IMG/VR virus record: IMGVR_UViG_3300021091_006432
Span: 1-35,040 of that record
Reading direction: 5' to 3' (one strand)
Length of the DNA: 35,040 bases
From: a virus
Below are positions 29,575 to 34,449 of this stretch, in pieces. Positions within the stretch are counted from its first letter, which is position 1. Every line of letters begins with the position of its first letter. The notes below the pieces were generated by a model that saw nothing but the letters and a program-made list of their open reading frames with translations, had not been told where the DNA came from and made no database searches. The translations under genes and the position numbers were made by a program.

Positions 29575-30909
29575 TCACTTATTTAAATAAGCTTGACCAG
29601 CAGCAACGACTTTCTGATCAACATCCCTAGGATCACGTGCACGAATGTAGACAGGGAACCTAACCTTACCATCTTTCGTCAATCCGTCTCCTGTAAGAGG
29701 ATCAGGTTGACCTTCCATCTCAATGATTCGTCCAATCCATGAATCCGGATCGATGTTGATATCGGCCTTCAATTTGTCAGTAAATCCACCGGCCACCCGG
29801 GTCACCACACCATTCGGCATGACGACCTCAAAGCCGCCCCACAGGCCCTCACGCTTGGAGCCTCTCCGGCCCTCGTAGTGACCCACGATAACTCCTTCGT
29901 AAGTGGCGATAGGTTTCATCTTTCTAATATTAGAAGACCTTTTAAAGAGGTACGGAGCCACCAGATCCTTCACCATGATGCCCTCGTAGCCGGCATCTGT
30001 GTCGTGGAGGTACGCGGCGAGGAGTTCCTCCTGGTCGTTGACGAGTCGACCCTGGACCTGGACCACGGCCGGGGCTCCGACCTGTGATACTAATTCCTTG
30101 GCGAGTTCCAACCTGTCCTCGAGGCCGAGGTGGCTCCCCCGGCCGCGCCAGTCCTCGAACGGCAAGGCATCGAAGACGTGAAAGACCATTTTCGAGTCGT
30201 CCTTACCTTTCTTATGAGACATGACTACCGAAGCAGAATCATTCCACGTTTCACCCATGACCTCACCATCGAGGATGAACTCGTCCCACGGAGCAGATTC
30301 GAGGAGAGACTTGATCCGGGGTAGGGTCTCGAGGACAGTACCGTTACGGGTGAACATCGTCACCTCTCCGTAATGTTTCACAGCCACGCACCGAAGACCA
30401 TCGAGCTTCGGTTCGACCCACGTCGGGTACATCACTGGTTCGCAGACGATGATTCCCTTACCTTCCTCGTACCGAGTTTCTAGGGTCTCGGCTAGTTGAA
30501 CCGAGAATCCAACAATTGCACCGGGCCACACCTTGTTGACAGTGGTTGACTGGACACCACACCGGAGGTTCTTGAGGAGGATCCTCTGACACCACTTCTG
30601 CTGTGGGCCAGTCATGTCCGCGAAGAGCCGGATAACGAGGTCCTTGGCGGCATTACCGGTCACTTTGCGTGTGGACAACTTTTCATAGATGTCCTCAAGA
30701 AAATGTTCTAGAACAAGATCGTCTGCATCGCAGGACTCGGCCTTGGGCATCTTGAACTTGTTGACGTAATAGTTAATGTACGGATCGCCGACGGCCACGA
30801 AGACCTTCTTGAGGAGGTCATTGCTAACATGAGAATCAAGAAGTTCCTCTTTAAAGAGACGAGAATTATTGGATTCTAGCTGCTCGAGAATGTCAACTAC
30901 AGATGTCAT
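29575..30909 (-). CDS. lig: ATP-dependent DNA ligase, T4 gp30-like
   Basis: Predicted ATP-dependent DNA ligase that seals nicks in phage DNA. An N-terminal helical DNA-binding region occupies about 1-150. The nucleotidyltransferase core follows: motif I E-P-K168-L-D-G171 (K168 takes AMP), TRNG at 187-190, motif III LDGE at 213-216, motif IIIa FHVFDALP, motif IV YEGIMVKD at 308-315 and motif V RKMKP at 329-333. The C-terminal OB domain begins about 336 (YEGVIVGHYEGR). All catalytic motifs are intact; the length of 444 residues is near T4 ligase (487). The base composition is exceptional here: 39 of 60 bases are G or C at 30001-30060, against 15 of 60 at 31261-31320. This suggests recent acquisition from a GC-richer source. 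It lies 41 bases after an unknown gene on the same strand. Confidence 0.93.
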   Translation of the reverse strand: MTSVVDILEQLESNNSRLFKEELLDSHVSNDLLKKVFVAVGDPYINYYVNKFKMPKAESCDADDLVLEHFLEDIYEKLSTRKVTGNAAKDLVIRLFADMTGPQQKWCQRILLKNLRCGVQSTTVNKVWPGAIVGFSVQLAETLETRYEEGKGIIVCEPVMYPTWVEPKLDGLRCVAVKHYGEVTMFTRNGTVLETLPRIKSLLESAPWDEFILDGEVMGETWNDSASVVMSHKKGKDDSKMVFHVFDALPFEDWRGRGSHLGLEDRLELAKELVSQVGAPAVVQVQGRLVNDQEELLAAYLHDTDAGYEGIMVKDLVAPYLFKRSSNIRKMKPIATYEGVIVGHYEGRRGSKREGLWGGFEVVMPNGVVTRVAGGFTDKLKADINIDPDSWIGRIIEMEGQPDPLTGDGLTKDGKVRFPVYIRARDPRDVDQKVVAAGQAYLNK

Positions 30910-31265: not shown

Positions 31266-31697
31266 TTAAATTTTTGCTTCCTGCTTCTTTATTTGTTTTC
31301 TTTGCTTTTTAGACATTTGTTTTCCTGAAACTGCAACAGCTTCTTTTAAAATGATAGACACAGATCCATCTTCAGTTTCCGATGTTACTGAAATTTGTGG
31401 TTGAAAATCTTCGAAAGAATCTCCTACAACTTCAGGTTCCCCCGTGTTTTCATGTAAAACTGCGGGAGGAGGAATCACAACGACACCTGCAGCAGGATTT
31501 GAGATGTACTTTTCGATGCATTGGAAAAATGAATTTTGATCCGGCGTTAAAACGCCTAATCTCTTACAAATTCTATCCAAACTTTCGTACGTCGTAATTC
31601 CTCTTTCTTTCAGAAAGATGTTCAACGTCGTTTTTCTTCTTCGCAAAAGATCTTCTAGCTTAATCTGGGATTTTTTTTGATATTTTGTTGCCTTCAT
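31266..31697 (-). CDS. Unknown protein of the split-sigma operon
   Basis: A 143-residue protein not assigned to a family. Its N-terminus is basic (MKATKYQKKSQIKLEDLLRR), followed by RKTTLNIFLKERGITTYESL and a segment that looks like a small helical DNA- or RNA-binding domain. The middle is proline-rich (VVVIPPPAVL) and the C-terminus very basic (KQMSKKQRKQIKKQEAKI). An in-frame start further upstream exists, but it would overlap the neighbouring gene by 74 bases. I choose ATG 31697, one base after that gene's TGA, with AAGGAAG as Shine-Dalgarno sequence. The basic ends suggest nucleic-acid binding. Confidence 0.65.
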   Translation of the reverse strand: MKATKYQKKSQIKLEDLLRRRKTTLNIFLKERGITTYESLDRICKRLGVLTPDQNSFFQCIEKYISNPAAGVVVIPPPAVLHENTGEPEVVGDSFEDFQPQISVTSETEDGSVSIILKEAVAVSGKQMSKKQRKQIKKQEAKI

Positions 31698-31698
31698 T

Positions 31699-31983
31699 TC
31701 AATACTTCCTTGCACACTCAATGTCTTGAAGAAGTTCAGCAATCCCGCTTTGGAACATAGGCGATCGAGCAATTGAATCTAATGAAGAACTAGGCACTTC
31801 AATTCCATATTGATCAACAACTGCTTCAGCAAACTTTCGCATAACGCGCAAAACGTAGTTCCTCGCGGAAGAGTGATTCATTCTATACCCAATCTCCGTC
31901 ATTGTATCTGCAATATCTCTATAATTTACACCATCATCGACGGTTGCATACCCAGATTCAAACTTTTTTCCTTTTTTCATCAT
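31699..31983 (-). CDS. Small HTH protein resembling sigma region 4.2
   Basis: A 94-residue protein. Residues about 17-55 (DGVNYRDIADTMTEIGYRM, then NHSSARNYVLRVMRKFAE) have the form of the helix-turn-helix in sigma-70 region 4.2: an initial Y-R-x-I-A helix, a turn, and a recognition helix with R41 and R47 followed by an MRKFA ending like the family's ALRKL. This is the piece that recognises the -35 box in ordinary sigma factors. The rest is a helical tail. The sigma-like protein two genes upstream in the same operon lacks exactly this part. The gene begins with an ATGA overlap after the membrane protein gene and ends one base before the next start. A stand-alone transcription regulator is the alternative. 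Confidence 0.65.
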   Translation of the reverse strand: MMKKGKKFESGYATVDDGVNYRDIADTMTEIGYRMNHSSARNYVLRVMRKFAEAVVDQYGIEVPSSSLDSIARSPMFQSGIAELLQDIECARKY

Positions 31984-32237
31984 TTCAAATCTTCTCCTCT
32001 ATCCGGAAACAATCGAATCACCGGTGCTGCCATCCTCGGCGAAAATTGTGCGGTCTGAATCTCTCGCAACCTGGTGTTCAGGTCATTTTCAATTTGAGAC
32101 ATTTGTTTGTCTTGCAAATCCGCACGCTCACGCTCTTCAATCTTCAATCCAAGAATAGCTCTCTTTAATAAAAAATATTGAAAAAAATTAAAAAATAATT
32201 GTAATGCCGTTATACCCAAAATAATTTTTAAAATCAT
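31980..32237 (-). CDS. Membrane-anchored coiled-coil protein within the sigma operon
   Basis: An 85-residue protein with one N-terminal membrane span (residues about 1-24, MILKIILGITALQLFFNFFQ), a positive KRA flank, then a charged heptad-like helix at about 31-62 (LKIEERERADLQDKQMSQIE). Its start overlaps the sigma gene's stop (ATGA), and its stop overlaps the HTH gene's start in the same way, so all three are translationally coupled. The topology resembles inner-membrane spanin subunits, but the placement between two transcription genes is unusual. The function is not known. Confidence 0.65.
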   Translation of the reverse strand: MILKIILGITALQLFFNFFQYFLLKRAILGLKIEERERADLQDKQMSQIENDLNTRLREIQTAQFSPRMAAPVIRLFPDRGEDLK

Positions 32238-33076
32238 TTTAGCCCATGTCCTGATTGAATCATGCTAACATCTTCTTCTGTAATGTTGTATGATGGATCA
32301 TCCAAAACGTCATCGACTAGCCCGAATCTAAGCCTCAAAATCGCAGCTTCTTTCGGTGTCAATTGTTCAAGCACTGATCTAGCCACTTGAATAAGTTGCT
32401 GCGATGAAATCATCTCAAGAGGAGAAATGTTCTTGTCATCGACCAACTTGGTTTCAAGCGTTTCAGCGCCAGATTCTAGTGACAACGGTTGGTCAAGCGA
32501 TATAACGTTTTTTCCTACGAAATTTGTTGCGTTAAAGACTGCGTCTGAAGTTCCTGTCATCTCTTTAAGTTCATCGACTGACGGATCACATCCCATTATC
32601 TGTCGATACTCTGCGGCTGCTGCTGCAAGCTTCTTCTGCGCAGTGACAGCATGCGCAGACATTCTAATAATTCGTTTGCGCTTTAGAATATACTGACCGA
32701 TTGCTTGCTTCACCCACCATGTCGCATATGTTGAAAAACGAAATCCTTTCGTCCAATCAAACTTTTCTATAGATTTCATCAATCCAAGGTTTCCCTCTTG
32801 AATAAGATCTTCAAGCGGGATGTTATAACCCTTGTACTGTTTCGTAATGTATACGACAAGCCTTAAATTTGATTCAATAAGCTTTTTCTTCGCTTTTACA
32901 GCAATGTCTCCTCCGATTTGATACTGTTTGAATAACTCAACCATCTCTTCATGGGAAAGTTGCGGATACCGCTTTAAGGAAGTCAAATAATTTGACATTC
33001 CATTTTTTTCTTCATCCAAAATTGACCTCTTCTTCAATTTTGAACCGGTCTTTTGAAGAGGCTTTTGAATCTCCAT
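32234..33076 (-). CDS. Sigma-70-family factor lacking region 4.2
   Basis: Predicted RNA polymerase sigma factor, group similar to RpoH/RpoS/RpoD. Region 1.2/2.1 is at about 29-75; region 2 at 70-140 is unmistakable (IPLEDLIQEGNLGLMKSIEK, then FDWTKGFRFSTYATWWVKQA). A region 3 follows at about 140-197 (AQKKLAAAAAEYRQI and PSVDELKEMTG), and LEQLTPKEAAILRLRFGL at 237-253 is region 4.1. The protein ends at residue 280 with ITEEDVSMIQSGHGLK, so the -35-binding HTH of region 4.2 is absent. The downstream DNA does not encode it in another frame at the junction; a membrane protein starts there by an ATGA overlap. A protein two genes on may supply the missing region. The start follows the previous gene's stop by one base. 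Confidence 0.85.
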   Translation of the reverse strand: MEIQKPLQKTGSKLKKRSILDEEKNGMSNYLTSLKRYPQLSHEEMVELFKQYQIGGDIAVKAKKKLIESNLRLVVYITKQYKGYNIPLEDLIQEGNLGLMKSIEKFDWTKGFRFSTYATWWVKQAIGQYILKRKRIIRMSAHAVTAQKKLAAAAAEYRQIMGCDPSVDELKEMTGTSDAVFNATNFVGKNVISLDQPLSLESGAETLETKLVDDKNISPLEMISSQQLIQVARSVLEQLTPKEAAILRLRFGLVDDVLDDPSYNITEEDVSMIQSGHGLK

Positions 33077-33507: not shown

Positions 33508-34449
33508 TTAACACAACGGAATGTCAAACTTTTTAGACATTTCAAAAACAGCAACGTTCTTTTTCTTCGCCTCAACCTCAACGTCGATCTTCTTGTCTCG
33601 TAAAAACTTCAATTGACAATCTGGAACGTAGTGAATCATGTCGCTGTGTTTCCTACGATCGATAAAATTTCCATTCATCAAGTGAGGTTCTGTGTTGCTG
33701 ATGTGCTGAAGCGGATTCACACCTGTTGGCCATGTTTCCATTGTTGCCAACATTGCTTCTTCCATTGACAACGAATCATCGTTAAAAATGTGATGGTGCG
33801 TATCAAATACTATAGGCACACCGGTCCTCTTATGTACATCTAAAAGATTCATAACAGAGTATGCAGTTTCATCGTTCTCTAACGTCAATCTACATCGAAC
33901 GTTGTCAGGCAACTCGTCAATTCGACGACACAATTGATCACTTCGGTCAGACTTTCCACCATGAACGTTGATAGCATACTTACAGCTGCTGTCAAGACCC
34001 ATAACATCGAACATCCATGCATGAATCTCCAGTTCCGTGAATGCTTTCTTTACAACATTTTCAGAATCAGAAGACAATACACAAAACTGTCCAGGATGCG
34101 TCGTCACACGCATATTAAATTCTTTGATGATACGACCGGCACGGTCGAGAAGGCTCGAGAGCTTTTCATTTTCGCACCACAACGAAGGATCAACTTGATC
34201 AGCCAACGGAAACATTGCTGAAGAAATACGAAACAACCGAACACCAGATTTTGCGATTCTAGGAAGCATTTTTACCAAAGCTTCAACATTGTGTTCATAA
34301 GTTCCAGAGATCTGCTCTGAAACATACTTTCCTGTTCGATACCTACCCAGCTGCAATGTCCTTTCATCCATCGCATTGTAAGTTTCAACACGACCAGTTC
34401 GAGGAATCGTCCGCTGGTCAAGCCAATGACAACAAATACCTAATGACAT
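33508..34449 (-). CDS. uvsE: UV damage endonuclease UvsE/UvdE
   Basis: Predicted UV-damage endonuclease that nicks DNA 5-prime of pyrimidine dimers and related lesions, starting a repair path independent of UvrABC. It has a TIM barrel with three-metal site residues. Visible family motifs: LFRISSAMFPL around 72-82; THPGQF at 117-122; NVHGG at 161-165; LENDE at 190-194; FDTHHH at 215-220; KHSD at 267-270; and VEVEAKKK at 290-297, where a lysine of this type is carboxylated in characterised enzymes. All metal-binding positions appear intact and the length of 313 residues is standard. The start ATG 34449 is the first in frame; no strong Shine-Dalgarno sequence is seen. It lies 72 bases downstream of a HAD phosphatase gene, on the same strand. 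Confidence 0.95.
   Translation of the reverse strand: MSLGICCHWLDQRTIPRTGRVETYNAMDERTLQLGRYRTGKYVSEQISGTYEHNVEALVKMLPRIAKSGVRLFRISSAMFPLADQVDPSLWCENEKLSSLLDRAGRIIKEFNMRVTTHPGQFCVLSSDSENVVKKAFTELEIHAWMFDVMGLDSSCKYAINVHGGKSDRSDQLCRRIDELPDNVRCRLTLENDETAYSVMNLLDVHKRTGVPIVFDTHHHIFNDDSLSMEEAMLATMETWPTGVNPLQHISNTEPHLMNGNFIDRRKHSDMIHYVPDCQLKFLRDKKIDVEVEAKKKNVAVFEMSKKFDIPLC

Follow-up and report, generated by a model that had tools for sequence, protein, structure and literature searches.

Sigma factors are taught as single chains, and their region 4 is a small domain in which two halves jointly hold the polymerase flap and recognise the -35 box. Here we describe a sigma-70 family gene in a 35,040-base stretch of viral DNA, the whole IMG/VR record IMGVR_UViG_3300021091_006432 (hereafter the window), which probably represents part of the genome of a large tailed phage. 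The 280-residue gene product (hereafter sigma) ends inside region 4. In most large contigs of the lineage, region 4.2 is found in a separate small protein (hereafter the 4.2 protein), and a 94-residue helix-turn-helix (HTH) protein is encoded behind the sigma gene. We give roughly an even chance to the reading that sigma is divided inside region 4, with region 4.2 supplied in trans and the 94-residue protein as a further partner.

Judged by its arrangement, the nearest working analogue is SigO–RsoA. In the accessible text of PMC10028694, SigO is sigma-4 and RsoA is sigma-2; the table in the accessible part of PMC10141391 gives the two domains in the opposite order. Both there and, putatively, here, two polypeptides cooperate, and the -10 and -35 reading is placed on separate proteins. 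SigO–RsoA is divided between the domains sigma-2 and sigma-4, whereas the putative cut described here lies inside region 4, between 4.1 and 4.2, and places the -35 reader on the small part, together with a cysteine-rich head. In addition, SigO–RsoA is a host system, whereas the one proposed here belongs to a phage.

In the case of phage T4, gp55 with gp33 has been termed 'a split sigma' (PMC2988020). According to the accessible parts of PMC2988020 and PMC7892883, gp33 is unrelated to sigma region 4 in sequence or structure, and the latter describes the T4 late promoter as a -10-like element and gp33 as clamping the flap tip helix. As in the present case, a phage promoter factor is accompanied by a small second protein, and gp33 is located at the beta flap, the usual site of sigma region 4. 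The two cases differ in that gp33 is not related to region 4, whereas the small protein here is a region 4.2 homologue.

SPO1 gp33 and gp34 are two small proteins jointly serving late transcription, according to the accessible text of PMC3601020. Their genes overlap and stand directly behind the DNA ligase gene (locus L329, 4412-6636). SPO1 gp33 forms its own family, PF25742, which was matched neither by the 94-residue protein (E up to 1) nor by three 4.2 proteins (E up to 0.1). SPO1 gp34 matches region 2 just under the cut-off and shows a weak region 4 match including the HTH positions; thus, the sigma regions are apparently not divided between gp33 and gp34. Against four local profiles, the two proteins scored at most 1.2 bits. 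SPO1 gp34 is a small sigma, and the pair was rejected as a homologous precedent. A DNA ligase gene also ends the sigma row in the window, possibly by chance.

The accessible part of PMC7824862 distinguishes two types of sigma protein in group 2 jumbo phages, one of them being the HTH-only 'minimal sigma'. Like the 4.2 protein, these minimal sigmas present a sigma-type HTH as a free-standing protein. In that description they are set apart as an alternative type of sigma, and not as the missing half of a truncated one. The original prediction, made from the window alone, knew of no described system with a sigma divided between two genes for this kind of phage. Analogues do exist in T4 gp55–gp33 and in SigO–RsoA, the latter not named in that prediction. 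A sigma cut inside region 4 was not described in the accessible literature searched, most subscription papers being outside reach.

The truncated sigma factor and the separate region 4.2 protein

The 280-residue protein was matched by Pfam Sigma70_r2 with an E value of 1.7e-21 and 76.2 bits (cut-off 24). The region 3 match (E 0.0053) was below its cut-off. The Sigma70_r4 match was weak and covered only positions 1-18 of 50, so that a complete region 4 was not found, and the NCBIfam model RpoD_Cterm was covered from 1 to 194 of 238. According to a profile of the sigma family (69 sequences), RpoD and SigA are the best relatives in the PDB (E 3.9e-62).

Homologous loci were collected with sigma as the query (15 relatives, then the best 80 of 469) and with the 94-residue protein as the query (34 loci, then 80 of 133). 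Not counting the locus of the window itself, the first group comprises 148 loci; some contigs were fetched twice. The second group comprises eight loci from queries of the divergent record G024, six fetched with sigma and two with the 94-residue protein. In all 87 distinct sigma open reading frames (ORFs) of the first group, of which two are incomplete at the 5' end, the stop lies 24-31 residues beyond the RxRFG motif ([RK][LM][RK]FG), and the sequence from the conserved Y/F to the end is exactly 18 residues in 78 of the 87. The sigma of the second group ends 13-28 residues past RFG at 8/8 loci, and at one of them (L331) it retains a segment similar to the beginning of the recognition helix. 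These results bear out the proposal that the protein of the window ends before the -35-binding HTH. A sequencing or assembly error was ruled out as the cause of the truncation, since 87 distinct homologues end alike. A region 4.2 hidden downstream through a frameshift or read-through was also rejected; a six-frame scan of the window with the region 4 and 4.2-protein profiles matched sigma only, and no 4.2 gene was found in the 35,040 bases.

Using hhalign, the sigma family matched sigma region 4 with a probability of 94.8%. The conserved tail is aligned with the recognition helix of ordinary region 4, with acidic residues at the usual DNA-contact arginines. It may be a remnant of the recognition helix. 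In a tree of 39 sigmas, 23 of the 24 truncated ones fall into one clade (94/91, not starred), and the truncated sigma of G024 is unplaced on a long branch.

A sigma of this shape could also be used in the manner of T4 gp55. It would read a -10 type element only, no -35 reader would be needed, and the HTH proteins would be co-activators or timing regulators. The T4 facts given above fit such a use, namely late promoters of a -10-like element, a flap-tip clamp that is not region 4 related (PMC7892883) and the naming of gp55 with gp33 as a split sigma (PMC2988020), all from the accessible parts of these sources. The present sigma, however, is RpoD-like and keeps a well conserved region 4.1 together with a region 3-like stretch, and we regard a gp55-like use as unlikely. 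The T4 clamp family PF02916 matched none of the 12 large contigs examined below, but the positive controls were also silent, and the null result therefore carries no information.

The preferred reading, a sigma divided inside region 4, draws in part on 12 large contigs (100-369 kb) in which the truncated sigma of the lineage is encoded. In a profile search for Sigma70_r4, sigma itself gave a weak match to the profile start, and nine of the 12 show in addition a match above the cut-off in a separate small protein, from positions 12-21 to 49/50, with scores of 34.6-38.1 bits (cut-off 24.1). The length of this protein is about 80-110 residues, taking the likely starts. Pfam scanning of three copies gave a Sigma70_r4 member in all of them (E 1.9e-9 to 8.5e-9). 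The hhalign probability against sigma region 4 is 97.7% (E 1.9e-12) across the 4.2 columns, and the PDB match is region 4 of SigA (best E 3.6e-7). The 4.2 protein bears the stretch GPxTLQEIGxIYGLTRMRICQIEK, in which the HTH pattern TLxEIG...TRxRIxQIE is present. Among 62 diverse copies, 16 columns are invariant, including C11, C22, C27, C39 and T61-R62-M63-R64-I65-C66-Q67 of the recognition helix. The four-cysteine N-terminus is probably zinc-binding, and no region 2 was found in the 4.2 protein in the Pfam, PHROG and NCBIfam scans. In E. coli sigma-70 numbering, R584, R586 and Q589 are kept, E585 is replaced by M and R588 by C. Because of these two replacements, the 4.2 protein would be predicted to read an altered -35 sequence.

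In most profiles compared, the coverage of the 4.2 protein starts about where that of sigma ends. In the case of Sigma70_r4, the sigma of the window covers 1-18, and the three scanned copies of the 4.2 protein cover 12/19 to 49/50. The corresponding ranges are 461-690 and 692/694-725 in phrog_351, 1-194 and 194-227 in RpoD_Cterm, 7-239 and 240-273 in the RpoS model, and 358-585 and 586-618 in PRK05658. The RpoD_Cterm, RpoS and PRK scores are all far below the cut-offs of these full-length models, because each protein covers one half.

A 4.2-protein profile, built partly from four of the 12 contigs, matched the same nine contigs, and marginal matches were added in G012 (E 0.018) and G010 (E 0.028). 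Beyond the 4.2 protein itself, a Sigma70_r4 match above the cut-off was found on G009 alone among the contigs bearing the 4.2 gene. This second sigma of G009 (L169 1045-1734) has an apparently compact but complete region 4 and stands beside the truncated one. A second, weak region 2 match was observed on G005. We infer that the phage of the window carries its 4.2 gene outside this 35-kb fragment.

The 94-residue protein

In the window, the genes of an 85-residue and of the 94-residue protein follow the sigma gene, each with a 4-base overlap, in agreement with the coupled operon of the original prediction, where the 94-residue gene stood two genes downstream. The two genes also co-occur in relatives. 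In 148/148 first-group loci they share a strand, and the 94-residue gene follows downstream of the sigma gene at a distance of 152-718 bases. In 8/8 second-group loci its homologue is directly behind sigma with no gene between, and its start overlaps the sigma stop or lies within about 4 bases of it, allowing for start choice. Since the loci fetched with the 94-residue protein contain its gene by construction, the linkage is independently tested by the sigma-fetched sets only; in the first group these gave 15/15 and 80/80 (the best 80 of 469). A sigma homologue that has its own region 4.2 and keeps the small gene was not seen among the loci examined. Because of the constant linkage, the 94-residue protein probably takes part in the same job as the truncated sigma.

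The original prediction had gone further and read a segment of the 94-residue protein, with the motif YRDIAD...NHSSARNYVLRVMRKF, as resembling region 4.2. Conservation in the family peaks at this motif, which looks like some HTH other than that of region 4.2. The family core, GxNxRxIxxxMxxxGxxMNHSSxxNxxxRxMxKF, has 16 invariant residues in 70 first-group sequences (window included), N36, H37, S38, S39, N42, R46, M48, K50 and F51 among them, and the mean column identity is 55% vs 44% for sigma. When the 70-row profile was compared by hhalign with ten sequences of full-length sigma region 4, the probability was 1.8%. No significant match was obtained in Pfam, PHROG or NCBIfam, and in Pfam the top-scoring family, ComJ (E 0.011), stayed below the cut-off. 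When the profile was searched against the PDB, a spore germination protein ranked first (E 0.002; C-terminal half), and SigR (E 0.36) was the sole sigma matched. By profile comparison, the 94-residue protein is not region 4.2 and is placed in no sigma family, which counts against that reading. The original prediction was right in kind but probably named the wrong partner: the idea of a divided sigma is supported by the detached region 4.2 of relatives, and the 94-residue protein was not shown to be the missing piece.

The AlphaFold model of the 94-residue protein has a mean predicted local distance difference test score (pLDDT) of 84.1 and a predicted template modelling score of 0.70, with values under 50 for the first 16 residues. 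Helices are formed by residues 21-30, 37-59, 65-73 and 75-93, giving an HTH shape with a long second helix, and the pLDDT block means of helices 21-30 and 37-59 are 91-98. The fold matches are all weak (StbA DNA-binding domain, DosR and Sap1). A 72-residue uncharacterised phage protein in BFVD was matched with a probability of 1.00 but an E value of 0.097. No sigma region 4 chain was among the Foldseek and VIA-align matches listed, a result that is uninformative either way under VIA-align's own caution.

It is conceivable that this non-homologous HTH protein took over the place of region 4.2 and reads the DNA upstream of -10, the 4.2 protein doing something else. The constant position behind sigma at the 148 and eight loci, the family identity above that of sigma and the HTH predicted in the model all suit such a takeover; it is countered by the lack of region 4 similarity, by the lack of a sigma fold among the matches listed, and by the bona fide region 4.2 in nine of the 12 large contigs that carry the pair. 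Moreover, only the loci fetched with sigma (15, then the best 80 of 469, and six of the second group) test the linkage independently. We consider the takeover improbable.

Co-occurrence and the proposed factor

Returning to the divided sigma with region 4.2 in trans, the three proteins would, to judge from their sequences, meet on the polymerase. The 280-residue sigma would bind the core polymerase and open the -10 region through regions 2 and 3, and it would retain region 4.1, the normal occupant of the beta flap. Region 4.2, the -35 reader, would be delivered in trans by the separate four-cysteine protein. The 94-residue HTH protein would be a further DNA-binding partner of the initiation complex, adding DNA contact or control. 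A three-part specificity factor, composed of sigma (2-3-4.1), the detached region 4.2 on a zinc-binding carrier and an extra HTH subunit whose gene always adjoins that of sigma, is a tentative proposal that we hold to be somewhat doubtful. If the halves work on separate proteins, the -10 and -35 reading could be controlled independently, and nature would provide a kit of parts for promoters with two or three inputs. With a three-part factor, the phage could switch the -35 use by timing the supply of the 4.2 protein apart from sigma. The genes also offer an entry point to gene regulation in an uncultivated large-phage group, of which no cultured member with the same genes was found.

G004, G006 and G012, the three that lack the 4.2 gene, are also without its neighbour PhoH, whose gene is located within 1 kb of the 4.2 gene in G001, G005 and G010, the three 4.2-bearing contigs of the 12 that were scanned for PhoH alongside them. 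Thus, the absence of the 4.2 gene from G004, G006 and G012 is uninformative. The strongest single case is the divergent contig NHDW01000006.1 (305,838 bp, from a bin titled Methylococcaceae), which holds the truncated sigma, a 94-residue homologue and the 4.2 protein. This contig looks like a large phage, and chaperonin-like and peptide-deformylase-like ORFs were noticed by eye near its sigma gene.

In the reverse direction, 18 further records with the 4.2 gene were searched for sigma, and a match was found in 5/18. At the eight second-group loci, the search for the 4.2 gene covered the fetched stretches. The three sigma matches of G030 come from contigs binned under the title Halobacteriovorax. 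G022 shows only a marginal 27-codon match to the 94-residue profile. G014 illustrates how sigma can be missed: its PhoH is 20.7 kb nearer to the contig start than in G010, where sigma lies about 67 kb before the 4.2 gene, and the sigma gene of G014 would therefore fall past the contig end if the two are collinear. A short sigma-like protein of 159 residues (L277 1243-1722) was observed on G026, a contig with the 4.2 gene; it also seems to be without region 4.2.

Several results weigh against the divided sigma. The 4.2 gene is unlinked to the sigma gene, with 40 to 270 kb between them on the nine contigs. The pair of truncated sigma and 94-residue protein is present in only three of the 18 further records (G017, G018 and G024), and no sigma match was obtained in 13 of them, on contigs of 79-236 kb that may be incomplete. 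A weak below-cut-off Sigma70_r4 match (positions 20-49) was found in a 426-codon frame of G004, which is without the 4.2 gene. A fused form of sigma and the detached 4.2 protein was not seen. In PRK05901.1-3 the two coverages overlap (sigma 297-512 vs 4.2 protein 493-524). No -35/-10 promoter pair was recognised in one 187-kb relative, where k-mer and expectation-maximization searches gave AT-rich noise; the upstream regions of the window were read by eye only. The HTH-only type of group 2 jumbo phages, from the accessible part of PMC7824862, is a further point on this side. Together with the distance between the genes and the 13 records without a sigma match, it would suit a 4.2 protein acting on its own as a minimal sigma or regulator, with no relation to the truncated sigma. 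In most of the profiles compared, however, the boundaries of the 4.2 protein complement those of the truncated sigma; the 4.2 protein showed no region 2, and in the named control phages its profile occurs only inside full-length sigmas. An independent role thus seems to us quite improbable.

These controls were 12 named phage records. The sigma profile matched eight of them, the 94-residue profile none, and the 4.2-protein profile two, in both cases inside the phage's own full-length sigma. Seven named-phage sigmas were scanned with Pfam, and a covalent region 4 was above the cut-off in four (Vibrio 2.275.O, VAP7, MA01 and S-B68). In K64-1, CBB and Munch region 4 was not above the cut-off, yet the chains run well past the 4.1-like segment, indicating that region 4 has diverged there too. 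In INPHARED, the 94-residue protein gave no match at E up to 1, and the 4.2 protein gave none at E up to 0.01; another copy of the latter gave only matches of 25-26% coverage in five records (E 0.2-1). No cultured phage with the same arrangement was found. The relatives recognised through the baseplate protein (Flavobacterium immuto, Microcystis Mel-JY01, LR756508 and PA5oct) gave no sigma match.

Gene row of the window

The features of the sigma row are listed in Table 1. The minus strand encodes, in order, a polynucleotide-kinase-like protein, UvdE, a small acidic protein, sigma, the 85-residue protein, the 94-residue protein, two further small genes and DNA ligase. On the plus strand, PHROG matches were obtained for two of the eight long ORFs scanned; one is a glycosyltransferase, the other a baseplate wedge protein. 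Through the baseplate wedge protein, the closest named records are a 484-kb uncultured phage, Flavobacterium immuto phages and Microcystis phage Mel-JY01, with 28-31% identity. No tRNA genes were found in the window.

Table 1. Features of the sigma row in the window
Feature	Position	Strand	Basis
Truncated sigma-70 family factor, 280 residues, RpoD/SigA-like, regions 2, 3 and 4.1	32234..33076	-	Pfam region 2, PDB profile matches, common end of homologues
Sigma region 2, residues 66-135	32672..32881	-	Pfam Sigma70_r2 profile 1-70 of 71
Sigma region 4.1, residues 235-254, sole clear part of region 4 retained	32315..32374	-	Sigma70_r4 profile 1-18 of 50, E 0.0081, below curated cut-off
Conserved 18-residue C-terminal sigma tail YxITxEExxxIxxGxGLK	32237..32290	-	Family alignment; hhalign to 4.2 helix
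Small protein of 85 residues, hydrophobic N-terminus, motif DLNxRLxxxQxxxFSP	31980..32237	-	ORF with 4-base overlaps on both sides; family alignment
HTH protein of 94 residues, constant neighbour of truncated sigma	31699..31983	-	Linkage; AlphaFold model
Predicted HTH of the 94-residue protein, residues 21-59, most conserved stretch	31807..31923	-	AlphaFold helices; invariant residues
Conserved gene of about 143 residues, N-terminus LxDLLRRRKxxLxxFLKExGIxTYxxLxxxCxxxGVxxP	31266..31697	-	Family alignment
ATP-dependent DNA ligase, end of syntenic row	29575..30909	-	phrog_114, 1.7e-100
UvdE-type UV endonuclease	33508-34449	strand of row (minus)	E 2.3e-54

The UvdE gene adjoins the sigma row in the closer relatives and is not present in L026-L034 within the stretch examined. 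The 85-residue protein is recognisable by BLAST in 37 of 40 loci (L002-L041), and its position between the sigma and 94-residue genes is empty in the second group (n = 8 loci). Judged by eye, its N-terminus may be a membrane segment. The gene of about 143 residues is matched by its profile in 147/148 first-group loci and weakly in 2/8 second-group loci. It is assigned to no family and may share a function with the sigma row.

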